NCBI RefSeq assembly: GCF_035961655.1
Contig: NZ_CP108393.1
Location: forward strand, 4,607,001 to 4,671,000
Length of the DNA stretch: 64,000 nt
DNA from: Streptomyces sp. NBC_01317
GTDB taxonomy: Bacteria > Actinomycetota > Actinomycetes > Streptomycetales > Streptomycetaceae
Reading direction: 5' to 3'
Part shown: piece by piece, positions 38,178 through 42,707 of the stretch
Numbering within the stretch: the first letter of the stretch is position 1
How the letters are laid out: the number at the start of each line of letters is the position of its first letter
Notes under the pieces: model-generated
Told to the model about the DNA's origin: nothing
Seen by the model: the letters and a program-made list of their open reading frames with translations, nothing else
The model's database searches: none
Made by a program: the position numbers and the translations under genes

Positions 38178-38198
38178 GGGGCCTTGCGGCAAGACCCC
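38178..38198 (+). promoter_or_regulatory. Rifamycin-associated element (RAE) upstream of helR
   Basis: GGGCCTTGCGGCAAGACCC (38179-38197) nearly matches the published 19-bp RAE, GGGGCTTGCGGCAAGGCCC, with the perfect inverted core CTTGC-G-GCAAG. RAEs precede rifamycin-inactivating and -protecting genes in actinobacteria and make them rifamycin-inducible. A TATAGC hexamer, a possible -10, lies about 10 bp upstream. The consensus is recalled, not searched. Confidence 0.85.
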
Positions 38199-38363
38199 GG
38201 TCATGCCGCAGAATCGACGGCCGAGGACAGATTCCACCCAGCCGCTCATGCCCGCGCGAGGCACCATGAGGCGCTCGGGGGATCATCGCCTCAGATCAGA
38301 CCATCAGGGAACGCCACGCCGGTCCCGGCGCCCGGCCGCAAGCGGCCCCACATCGGAGTTGAA

Positions 38364-40568
38364 GTGAACAACCCCCCGACCGACCGACCGAACAACCATT
38401 CCCTCAGCGCCTTCAACCTCCCCGACCGTCTGTCCCCCAAGGCCGACCCCGCCCTGATCGCCACCGACGAGCAGCACTTCGCCGCCATCGCGGAGAGCCT
38501 CGACCGGTCGATCGCCGAGCTGTCCGCCCTCCTCGACGCCGAGCTGAAGTCGCCCGGCGGCGTGGGCCGGCACGCGATGGACCGGGACACCGAGGTCCAC
38601 CGGCTGACCGCCCGCCTGCGCGCCCTGCGCCGCTTCGGCCTGGACCTGTGCCTCGGACGCATGGTCGGTGCGGACGACCCCGAGCCCGTGTACGTAGGAC
38701 GGCTCGGCCTCACCGACAGCACCGGGCGCCGGCTGCTCCTCGACTGGCGCTCCCCCGCCGCCGAGCCGTTCTTCGGCGCCACCCACGCCAACCCGATGGG
38801 CCTGGCCAGCCGCCGCAGGTACCGCTGGACCCGGGGCCGGATCGGCGACTACTGGGACGAGGTGTTCACGGCGGACGGCTTCGCCGGGCACGCCGCGCTC
38901 GACGACCAGTCCGCCTTCATCGCCAGCCTGGGCAGCAACCGCTCGCCCCGGATGCGCGACGTGCTCGGCACCATCCAGGCCGACCAGGACGCCATCATCC
39001 GCGCGGGTTCGCGCGGCGCGCTGGTGGTCGACGGCGGTCCCGGTACGGGGAAGACCGTCGTCGCCCTGCACCGCTCCGCGTACCTCCTCTACTCCGACCC
39101 CCGCCTGGGTCACCGCCGGGGCGGTGTCCTGTTCGTCGGCCCGCACCAGCCGTACCTGGGGTACGTCGCCGATGTCCTCCCCAGCCTCGGGGAGGAGGGC
39201 GTCCAGACCTGCACCCTGCGCGACCTCGTCGCCGAGGGGGCCGCAGCGGCGGTCGAGGCCGATCCGGCCGTGGCCCGCCTGAAGGCGTCGGCGGACCTGG
39301 TGAAGGGGATCGAGACGGCTGTCCGCTTCTACGAGGACCCGCCCACCCAGGGCATGACGGTCACGACCCACTGGTCCGACATTCACCTGAGCGCCGACGA
39401 CTGGGCCGCCGCGTTCGAGGCGGCCGAACCCGGCACGCCGCACAACGACGCCCGCGACCAGATCTGGGAGGAACTGCTCACGATCCTGGTCGACAAGCAC
39501 GACGACGAGGCGTCGGCCGTCCCGCTCCGCAAGTCCCTGCCGCAGAACCGGGAGTTGCGCACCGCCTTCAACCGCGCGTGGCCGCTGCTCGAAGCGACCG
39601 ACCTGGTCGGCGACCTGTGGACCGTACCCGCTTACCTGCGCAAGTGCGCTCCCTGGCTGAGCCGCGAGGACGTACAACTGCTGCAACGCGAGGAACCGCA
39701 GGCCTGGACCGTGTCCGACCTGCCGTTCCTGGACGCGGCGCGGCAGCGGCTCGGCGACCCGAAGGAGTCGCTGCGCCGGCGCCGGCACAAGGCCGCCGTC
39801 GCCGCCGAACGCGAGCACATGGCCAAGGTGGTCGACACCCTGCTCGCCGCCGACGACGACGGGGAGGGGGCGGTGACGATGTTGTACGGGAAGGACATGC
39901 AGGACGCCCTGATCGACGAGAACACCCCGTCGAGCAATACACCGGCCAGTGCCGAACCGGACGTGCTCGCGGGGCCGTTCGCGCATGTGGTCGTGGACGA
40001 GGCGCAGGAACTCACCGACGCGGAATGGCAGATGCTGCTGCTGCGGTGCCCGTCCCGGAGCTTCACCATCGTCGGGGACCGCGCGCAGGCCAGGCACGGG
40101 TTCACCGAGTCGTGGCAGGAACGGCTGGCGCGGGTCGGGCTCGACCGGATCAAGCTGGCCTCGCTGAGCATCAACTACCGTACGCCGGAAGAGATCATGG
40201 CGGCGGCGGAGCCCGTCATCAGGGCCGTACTCCCGGACGCGAACGTGCCGACGTCCATCCGCAGCAGCGACCTTCCTGTCGTCCACGGGCCCGCTTCGGA
40301 CCGGGACGTGATCCTCGACCGCTGGCTCGCGGAGCACGACGACGGGATCGCGTGTGTGATCGGCGATCCGGCCTTCGGTACGAGCCGTACTGCCCGTACG
40401 TCTCCCCGCGTCCGGTCGCTGACTCCGGAACTGTCGAAGGGGCTTGAGTTCGACCTGGTCGTGCTGGTCGATCCGGAGGAGTTCGGCCAGGGGATCGAGG
40501 GGGCGGTGGACCGGTATGTGGCGATGACGCGCGCGACACAGCAGCTGGTGATTCTCACCAGCGGCTGA
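38364..40568 (+). CDS. helR: HelR, rifamycin-displacing RNA polymerase ATPase
   Basis: A 734-residue HelD-family protein. It carries GRLGLTDSTGRRLLLDWRSP then AAEPFF, Walker A GGPGTGKT (224-231), DEAQE (Walker B), the SINYRT motif and late ELSKGLEF and YVAMTRATQ. HelR of Streptomyces binds RNA polymerase, displaces rifamycin and gives tolerance or resistance; its gene is marked by an upstream RAE, as here. The GTG at 38364 has a GGAG site; the frame extends 180 nt upstream through the RAE, which excludes the longer form. A rifamycin monooxygenase gene lies 0.6 kb downstream, strengthening the assignment. Confidence 0.9.
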   Translation: MNNPPTDRPNNHSLSAFNLPDRLSPKADPALIATDEQHFAAIAESLDRSIAELSALLDAELKSPGGVGRHAMDRDTEVHRLTARLRALRRFGLDLCLGRMVGADDPEPVYVGRLGLTDSTGRRLLLDWRSPAAEPFFGATHANPMGLASRRRYRWTRGRIGDYWDEVFTADGFAGHAALDDQSAFIASLGSNRSPRMRDVLGTIQADQDAIIRAGSRGALVVDGGPGTGKTVVALHRSAYLLYSDPRLGHRRGGVLFVGPHQPYLGYVADVLPSLGEEGVQTCTLRDLVAEGAAAAVEADPAVARLKASADLVKGIETAVRFYEDPPTQGMTVTTHWSDIHLSADDWAAAFEAAEPGTPHNDARDQIWEELLTILVDKHDDEASAVPLRKSLPQNRELRTAFNRAWPLLEATDLVGDLWTVPAYLRKCAPWLSREDVQLLQREEPQAWTVSDLPFLDAARQRLGDPKESLRRRRHKAAVAAEREHMAKVVDTLLAADDDGEGAVTMLYGKDMQDALIDENTPSSNTPASAEPDVLAGPFAHVVVDEAQELTDAEWQMLLLRCPSRSFTIVGDRAQARHGFTESWQERLARVGLDRIKLASLSINYRTPEEIMAAAEPVIRAVLPDANVPTSIRSSDLPVVHGPASDRDVILDRWLAEHDDGIACVIGDPAFGTSRTARTSPRVRSLTPELSKGLEFDLVVLVDPEEFGQGIEGAVDRYVAMTRATQQLVILTSG

Positions 40569-41135: not shown

Positions 41136-41186
41136 CGTGCCGCAGGCGGCCAATCAGCGGCAAACACAACGACGTTGGGGGTTCTT

Positions 41187-42707
41187 GTGAGGGACGTGAG
41201 GGACATGACAGATGTGACGGACGTGACGGACGTGACGGTGGTCGGCGCCGGGCCGACCGGCCTGATGCTGGCCTGTGAGCTGCGGCTGGCCGGAGTGGAT
41301 GTGGTCGTACTGGAGAGGCTGACCGAGCCGACAGCGCAGTCGCGCGGGCGCGGCCTGCACACGCGCAGCGTCGAACTTCTCGACCAGCGGGGCCTGTTGG
41401 ACCGGTTCCTCGCGGTGAGCGAGAAGTTCCGGGTCGGCGGCTTCTTCGGGGGCGTACACAAGCCGTGGCCGGACGGCCTGGACACGGGGCACCCGTACGG
41501 TCTCGCCACCTCGCAGACGGACACCGTACGGCTGCTCACCGAGCGTGCCCTCGAACTGGGCGCCGAGATCCGGCGGGGCAGCGAAGTGGTCGGGCTGACC
41601 CAGGACGAGAGCCCCACCCCCGGCGTGACCGTCGACCTGGCGGACGGTACGAACCTCCGCTCGCGCTACCTCGTCGGCTGCGACGGCGGCCGCAGCACGA
41701 TCCGGAAGCTCATCGGGGTCGGTTTCCCCGGCGAACCCGCCACGGTGGAGACGCTGTTGGGCGACATGGAGGCGACGGAGGACCGGGAGACGATCGCCGC
41801 CGTTGTGGCGGAGGTCCGCACGACCGAACTGCGCTTCGGCGCCATCCCCGACGTGGACGGCAAGGCGGGCGTGTACCGCATCGTCGTACCCGCAGAAGGC
41901 GTCGCGGAGGACCGTACGACCGCGCCTACCCTGGACGAGTTCAAGCAGCGGCTACGCGCCACCGCGGGCACCGACTTCGGTGTCCACGCGCCGCGTTGGC
42001 TCTCCCGCTTCGGCGACGCGACCCGGCAGGCGGAGCGCTACCGGGTGGGCCGGGTACTGCTGGCCGGCGACGCGGCGCACATCCACCCGCCGACCGGCGG
42101 GCAGGGCCTCAACCTCGGGGTGCAGGACGCGTTCAACCTCGGCTGGAAACTGGCCGCCGAGGTCAACGGCTGGGCCCCGGCGGGGCTGTTGGACAGCTAC
42201 CACACGGAACGGCACCCGGTCGGCAAGGCCGTTCCCGACAACACCCACGCGCAGATGTCGCTGTTGGGGACGGACCCGGGGCCAACTGCCCTACGGGAGC
42301 TGTTCGCGAAGCTGATGGACTTCGAAGAGGTGAACCGGTACATCACCGGGATGATCACCGCGGTCGACGTCCGCTACGACCTCGGCCACGACATCGGCCA
42401 CGACGTCGGCCACGACCTCGGAGAAGGCCACGAACTCCTGGGCCGCCGCCTGCGCGACGTGAGCCTGAAGCGGGCGGGCCGCCTCTACCCCCTGATGCAC
42501 CACGCCCGGGGCCTGCTCCTCGACCGAACCGGCCGCCTCTCACCGACGGGCTGGACGGACCGCGTCGACCACGTGGTGGACACGAGCGACGAACTCGACG
42601 TACCCGCGGCGCTGTTGCGCCCGGACGGCCACGTGGCCTGGGTGGGCGACGACCAGGCGGACCTGCTCGACCACCTCCGGAGGTGGTTCGGCACGCCCAC
42701 CGCCTGA
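41187..42707 (+). CDS. rox: Rox-type rifampicin monooxygenase
   Basis: A 506-residue FAD-dependent monooxygenase. [20 protein letters not shown] binds [19 protein letters not shown] and [20 protein letters not shown] with [17 protein letters not shown] complete the fold. The wording follows Rox of S. venezuelae across most of its length ([60 protein letters not shown]). Rox hydroxylates the naphthyl ring of rifampicin, linearising it. Short repeats are expanded at both ends: TDV near the start and GHD-type units at 42381-42421. GTG 41187 is preferred; ATG 41205 is possible. No RAE was found in front of it. Confidence 0.92.

Follow-up and report, generated by a model that had tools for sequence, protein, structure and literature searches.

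A rifamycin-associated element upstream of helR in Streptomyces sp. NBC_01317 as the possible shared centre of a divergent promoter pair

The rifamycin-associated element (RAE) is known from Streptomyces venezuelae and Mycobacterium abscessus, where it is located 5′ of a gene for a class II HelD protein of the HelR kind and where the reviews PMC10719064 and PMC8655204, in the parts available to us, report two sense promoters, one of which, P2, has its −35 box in the RAE. The genes helR and arr are the two most rifampicin-induced genes of M. abscessus (PMC10719064, available part), and the RAE switch therefore governs the inducible tolerance of a key drug. A different arrangement has been described in Bacillus subtilis, in which helD and pps are associated with a dual-promoter rifampicin sensor consisting of one sense and one antisense promoter, the latter being dominant as measured; shortening of the gap so that the polymerases clash abolished the response (PMC12802891, available part). 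The subject of this work is a 64,000-nucleotide stretch of Streptomyces sp. NBC_01317 (contig NZ_CP108393.1, positions 4,607,001 to 4,671,000), referred to as the window, which includes an RAE followed by helR and, further downstream, by the rifamycin monooxygenase gene rox.

The RAE of the window resembles those of S. venezuelae and M. abscessus in that it precedes a gene of the same kind and in the presence of a predicted sense promoter with its −35 within the element. On the other hand, the reviews, in the parts available, mention no antisense promoter, while the window and 137 other sites include a −10-like hexamer mirrored on the antisense side. In our judgment the chances are about even that two divergent promoters, both predicted from the DNA, are arranged as mirror images around the RAE as their common centre and drive the rifamycin switch. 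More tentatively, and with slightly less than even confidence, the RAE of the Actinomycetota may be an obligatory divergent pair in which a non-coding antisense promoter is part of the sensor; dual-promoter sensing of rifamycin would then have arisen a second time, independently of the convergent pair of Bacillus. Both systems would have in common the association of rifamycin-resistance genes with a sense and an antisense promoter, although dominance of the antisense promoter was measured in B. subtilis and would be expected here. While the B. subtilis promoters converge, with 39 bp between their starts, the RAE pair is divergent, back to back, and shares a palindromic −35 zone. The antisense hexamer lies upstream of the sense hexamer and points away from it, which places the RAE outside the convergent B. 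subtilis type; because of this divergent and overlapping geometry the collision model is inapplicable as it stands, and the RAE pair must work differently. No antisense promoter at an RAE is described in the available parts of PMC8655204, PMC7283461, PMC10719064, PMC12802891 and PMC13246000, but the founding papers (Surette 2022, Hurst-Hess 2022, Spanogiannopoulos 2014) may describe one. A literature search for divergent promoters with rifampicin gave no paper. The fixed promoter-like pair around the RAE may help explain the drug-sensing switch, and makes its mechanism directly testable. The components of the putative switch in the window are:

38178-38198, no strand: GGGGcCTTGCGGCAAGaCCCC, the RAE, with its dyad centre at 38188 and a −35-like TTGC on either strand
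38209-38214, plus strand: predicted sense −10, CAGAAT, with C at −12, 19 bp from TTGCGG (38184-38189), directed towards helR
38162-38167, minus strand: TAGGTT as read on this strand, predicted −10 of the antisense promoter, symmetrical to the sense −10 around the centre of the RAE
38130-38155, minus strand: hairpin opening the predicted antisense RNA, whose predicted +1 is the G at 38155; lacks a T-tract

The element is a 19-bp palindrome before a rifamycin-resistance gene, as expected of an RAE, and its inducibility in this strain is a prediction. The initial annotation had placed a near-perfect RAE directly upstream of helR; the copy is in fact perfect, and 165 bp separate it from the start codon. 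Scanning of the 8.07-Mb chromosome, a single contig, with the pattern GGGNCTTGCGGCAAGNCCC, taken from the window sequence, detected exactly two perfect matches, the window copy and one before an rph gene. With up to three mismatches the real pattern (30+20) was rarer than a reversed control (78+73), and therefore only perfect matches are meaningful in this genome. For comparison, 138 distinct sites were collected by their CTTGCnGCAAG core, each with 80 bp or more of flanking sequence in both directions: two from the genome itself, 75 from 80 helR loci, 30 from RAE loci of the genus, six new ones from 10 Rox loci, and 25 from a phylum-wide draw in which 30 of 396 genomes had RAEs and 21 of the sites were outside the genus, in ten families. 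The loci of the genome itself, the genus and the phylum were fetched by the full RAE pattern, except the helR copy of the window, which was fetched by gene; the 81 sites from helR and Rox loci were fetched without the pattern and chosen by the 11-bp core only. The GGG/CCC arms are present in 138/138 sites, including these 81/81. A helR RAE together with its flanks was obtained from 74 of the 80 helR loci. Among the others, L053 and L115 have substituted RAEs with one mismatch, the upstream sequence of L062 and L116 is too short, the core of L075 is so close to the end of its contig that the flanks could not be scored, and in L098 no RAE was found within 2.5 kb of helR. The genes behind the RAEs cluster as helR, rox-like, rgt, rph and arr; eight sites with another longest frame were taken for out-of-frame picks. 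Representatives of arr, rgt and rph match NCBI models, with rgt and a partial rph piece scoring under the cut-offs.

The antisense hexamer is TANNNT in all 138 sites, with a distance of exactly 22 bp between its A and the dyad centre; at the mirror position on the sense side the hexamer is CANNNT in 136, GANNNT in two and TANNNT in none. The RAE is found midway between both hexamers at every site, whether it precedes helR, rox, rgt, rph or arr. Sites were oriented by the flanking hexamers alone, and this orientation makes 74 of the 75 helR-locus sites face helR, the 75th being the RAE of a neighbouring rox, which it faces. The antisense TANNNT is confined to a single offset (100% of the sites at 22 bp, 4% or less elsewhere between 6 and 71 bp), and its first T, the A and the last T are constant while the middle positions vary to give 19 different hexamers. 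TANNNT is the −10 rule of actinobacterial housekeeping promoters, and by this rule the antisense partner looks like one of them. The predicted antisense +1 is G in 137 of the 138 sites. All 21 loci outside the genus have both hexamers, one of them with GACACT on the sense side.

A score matrix of 53 columns built from RAE regions had given 15 further hits, all 15 with the pair. As the matrix contains the hexamers, this count was replaced by a recheck blind to the flanks, which considered RAEs with up to two mismatches in 16 fixed positions, outside the 138 sites and 26 control loci. The pair was present at 16 of 17 such sites (8/8 exact, 8/9 with one mismatch). None of 25 near-RAE control places in the genome itself showed it, and it was also absent from the single RAE-like place in viral contigs, a phage site that was discarded as a chance match. 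A cruciform role for the palindrome was likewise rejected, as the two bases 6 bp from the centre can pair in 25% of the sites compared with 22% expected from the column make-up.

The two sides of the RAE also differ in what follows them. When a terminator was defined as a strong hairpin within 34 nt of the antisense RNA start followed by at least 5 T in 10, hairpin plus T-tract was found on the antisense side of 69/138 sites and in 0/138 each of the sense side, far upstream and shuffled sequences. Regardless of T residues, strong hairpins numbered 76 on the antisense side, four on the sense side, seven far upstream and none in shuffled sequences; an earlier count, which mixed in a second hairpin, gave z < −2 in 56/138 antisense, four sense and eight far upstream. 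The 69 terminators distribute as 1/2 in the genome itself, 36/75 in helR loci, 19/30 in genus RAE loci, 5/6 in Rox loci and 8/25 in the phylum set, of which the members within the genus account for 4/4. The copy before rph in the same chromosome has a hairpin of z −5.9 plus a T-tract.

In the switch that we propose, a sense promoter with a −10 consistently devoid of T at −12 would face helR, and an antisense promoter with the signature TANNNT would face away from it and give rise to a very short RNA that, at least in the genus, would end at the terminator. The −35 zone of both promoters would consist of the same 11 bp, so that they would probably accommodate one polymerase at a time. In the absence of the drug, polymerase traffic would be directed to the antisense side; rifamycin would shift the balance, the sense promoter would fire, and the HelR made as a result would free RNA polymerase from the drug. 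The predicted sense element fits the mycobacterial P2 promoter, mapped by others with its −35 within the RAE (PMC10719064, available part). This shift would require a factor beyond polymerase exclusion, most likely a protein dimer on the GGGGnCTTGC half-sites. A survey of open reading frames of at least 110 aa recurring in at least nine of the 80 helR loci found no regulator beside helR, only helR itself, rgt and overlapping frames (the overlap being derived from the listed coordinates), a survey that would miss smaller or very diverged regulators; a factor of this kind would be encoded elsewhere.

Several observations weigh against the divergent switch. In a model of polymerases with exclusive occupancy, the fold change never reached 1 in 200,000 random settings, irrespective of dwell times, since the drug takes active polymerase away from the two sides equally; the antisense promoter alone therefore cannot be the sensor, and a further factor is needed. 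The hairpin of the window itself is only weakly above shuffled sequences (−10 kcal/mol, z −1.6), lacks a T-tract and does not count towards the 69 terminators, which are mostly a feature of the genus (4/21 loci outside it). At 19 bp the spacers are long, the −35 consists of TTGC only, and neither promoter would pass as a consensus judged by Escherichia coli rules. The G at the antisense +1 is within a stretch conserved throughout and hence is no separate proof, and an A-N3-T lacking the T at −12 is found in the same stretch 28 bp from the centre in 86% of the sites. The 138 sites were selected for their RAE core and have a common descent, and therefore do not represent 138 independent events. 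For M. smegmatis a sense start, P1, has been reported some 20 bp before the RAE (PMC10719064, available part), close to the predicted antisense start, and the two placements are at odds. Finally, the exception in the flank-blind recheck, L202, is the RAE of the G038 rox, which has one arm base changed; it keeps the core and the sense hexamer and has CCGGCC in the antisense place, indicating either that the pair is not absolutely required or that this copy is dead. The same copy offers a naturally occurring test of what the antisense promoter contributes.

Possible as well, although we favour it less, is that the RAE is an ordinary operator for a rifamycin-responsive factor acting as a dimer, the upstream hexamer being a real but idle antisense promoter that is co-regulated through symmetry. 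The invariance of the GGG/CCC arms in the 81 core-chosen sites speaks for it, as a pair of −35 boxes would not need these bases, and so does the failure of polymerase exclusion to induce; an unknown factor has also been considered by the authors of PMC12802891 and PMC10719064, in the parts available. An operator gives, however, no reason for the T at −12 on the antisense side to be kept in 138/138 sites before five gene kinds in at least 11 families, it leaves the never-T at −12 of the sense side unexplained, and the survey of the 80 helR loci returned no recurrent regulator gene of at least 110 aa. An improbable alternative is a switch made of polymerase only, as in B. subtilis helD, in which the drug would arrest the polymerase at the stronger antisense promoter and free the sense one. 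The logic is the same, with a better-looking antisense and a poorer sense promoter, and no regulator was found beside the genes; against it stand the geometry, converging in B. subtilis (PMC12802891, available part) and diverging with overlap at the RAE, and the outcome of exclusive occupancy, which at most yields no change. That the upstream TANNNT reflects chance or recent common descent alone is very improbable: the sites are homologous or copied between genes, and most are from one genus, but T1, A2 and T6 stayed fixed while the middle varied, the 21 loci outside the genus agree, and the controls gave 0/25.

The genes of the locus are arranged as follows:

38364-40568, plus strand: helR, 734 aa, GTG start, RNA polymerase-protecting motor protein, match to NF041254
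40584-41132, minus strand: Imm5-like gene, 182 aa, between helR and rox and on the opposite strand, PF21805
41208-42707, plus strand: rox, FAD rifamycin monooxygenase, 499 aa, without RAE, identified by NF033145, 5vqb and the tree

The product of helR is HelR, class II HelD, by its sequence, and its function in displacing rifamycin is assumed from the family. It scored 1273 bits with the curated model NF041254 (cut-off 750) and 378 bits with the M. smegmatis-type model HelD_MYCSM, below the cut-off of 1051, in agreement with the earlier assignment to HelR and not to HelD; the translation contains DWRSP and GGPGTGKT. The second-best place in the genome scored 442 bits with the HelR model, leaving one HelR above the cut-off, and the closest relatives of the gene are mostly from Streptomyces. 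A second, distant HelD-like gene is located at 16147-18084 on the plus strand, about 20 kb before helR, with 194 bits to the HelR model. The Imm5-like protein belongs to PF21805 (62.9 bits, cut-off 25). In nine fetched congener loci with a homologue of this gene, neither helR nor rox was found within 1.5 kb on either side.

The FAD enzyme had been proposed to be of the Rox type, and it sits inside the Rox group in a 58-row tree, next to a row that has an RAE (support 96/88). With the model NF033145 it scored 798.7 bits, 1.3 under the curated cut-off of 800, a shortfall that may be accounted for by a 12-residue insert absent from 5vqb. This rifampin monooxygenase is the closest solved structure (703 bits), and the alignment with it extends from residue 8 to the end. 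The 23 best-scoring of the 57 compared rows are 70-79% identical to the window Rox, the genome has one Rox-level match, and the start codon is possibly up to 33 bp further upstream. At about 42380-42430 Rox carries a short in-frame repeat of 12 residues that 5vqb lacks. Seven other RAE-driven FAD monooxygenases (L174, L171, L188, L186, L184, L165, L181), from five families, form their own clade (100/100) with 42-46% identity to the window Rox. L174 scored 815 bits with the ‘hypothetical protein’ model PRK06834 (cut-off 625) and 468 of the required 800 with the Rox model, and the association of this unnamed family with the RAE suggests rifamycins as possible substrates.

Contrary to what is found in its closest relatives, rox has no RAE. 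The best score of the RAE matrix in 40561-41260 was −65.6, compared with 82.6 at the helR RAE, and was no better than 20 mononucleotide shuffles (mean −61.7, maximum −45.3), so that no decayed RAE was found there either; the earlier statement that only helR has an RAE is thus correct. Because the closest Rox relatives have RAEs of their own (20 exact and three with a substitution among the 23 best-scoring rows), the window rox probably lost or left its element. The rox genes of L153, L193, L195, L197, L201 and L205 have RAEs with one mismatch, so that the exact pattern overestimates the number of genes without RAE. A consensus scan of 40480-41260 detected neither a sigma-70-type promoter nor a T-tailed terminator, and the stability of the hairpin after helR does not exceed that of shuffled sequences; read-through from helR into rox, as judged from the DNA, is therefore possible. 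We consider rox an intact Rox-type gene outside RAE control, with co-regulation, if any, occurring only by read-through.

The initial annotation had gone further and regarded helR, the Imm5-like gene and rox as one RAE-controlled resistance locus. This reading, which is compatible with the others, is unlikely, and the claim was not borne out. The two anti-rifamycin genes are on the same strand, with the 639 bp (0.6 kb as described) from the helR stop to the rox start containing neither a recognizable terminator nor a hairpin above shuffle level, but rox has no RAE, the intervening gene is on the opposite strand, and the junction was found in its own genome only: a 1401-bp query against 392 congeners matched in one piece there only, among the matches listed (two candidates were scored per genome, and a complete junction would head the list). 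L042, the nearest relative by HelR (95%), has both upstream genes in common with the window and keeps 43 residues (95%) of the Imm5-like protein from its helR-side end, and its contig ends 161 bp past helR, before the rox position, so that rox cannot be judged there.

Proximity of the two genes does occur elsewhere but is uncommon. At limits of 1e-200 and 1e-220 for the Rox and HelR searches, 150 congeners included 93 with Rox, 99 with HelR and 67 with both, and in only three of these 67 (G005, the present genome and G016) is rox within 5 kb of helR, the next distance being 20.5 kb; these values cover pairs on the same contig, as pairs split over contigs cannot be judged. In G005 RAE, rox and helR are in tandem with a gap of 159 bp, in the present genome the model matches are 670 bp apart, and in G016 (L204, C14:9500-19500) RAE-rox is followed by RAE-rgt-helR, with 3.9 kb between rox and helR and 8 kb in all. 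The latter is a compact three-gene rifamycin island. The idea of a single RAE serving target protection and drug inactivation holds in that it recurs, as RAE-rgt-helR, and fails as a peculiarity of the window. Of the 74 oriented sites in helR loci, 23 are more than 600 bp upstream, and 22 of the 23 have an rgt homologue in between, 19 near full length and three as short remnants; the rgt of L068 scored 667 bits with the Rgt model, under its cut-off of 800. In this arrangement, too, one RAE precedes a drug-inactivating gene and helR, whereas the inactivating gene of the window is rox, located past an opposite-strand gene and without RAE. The neighbourhood is thus an uncommon rearrangement of known genes. 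Downstream of rox there are two adjoining ferritin-like genes (PF13668) at 42854-44625 on the minus strand. Another congener, G129, has two equal-scoring rox copies (C1:147374-148828 and C1:8383765-8385219) near both chromosome ends, as in terminal repeats.

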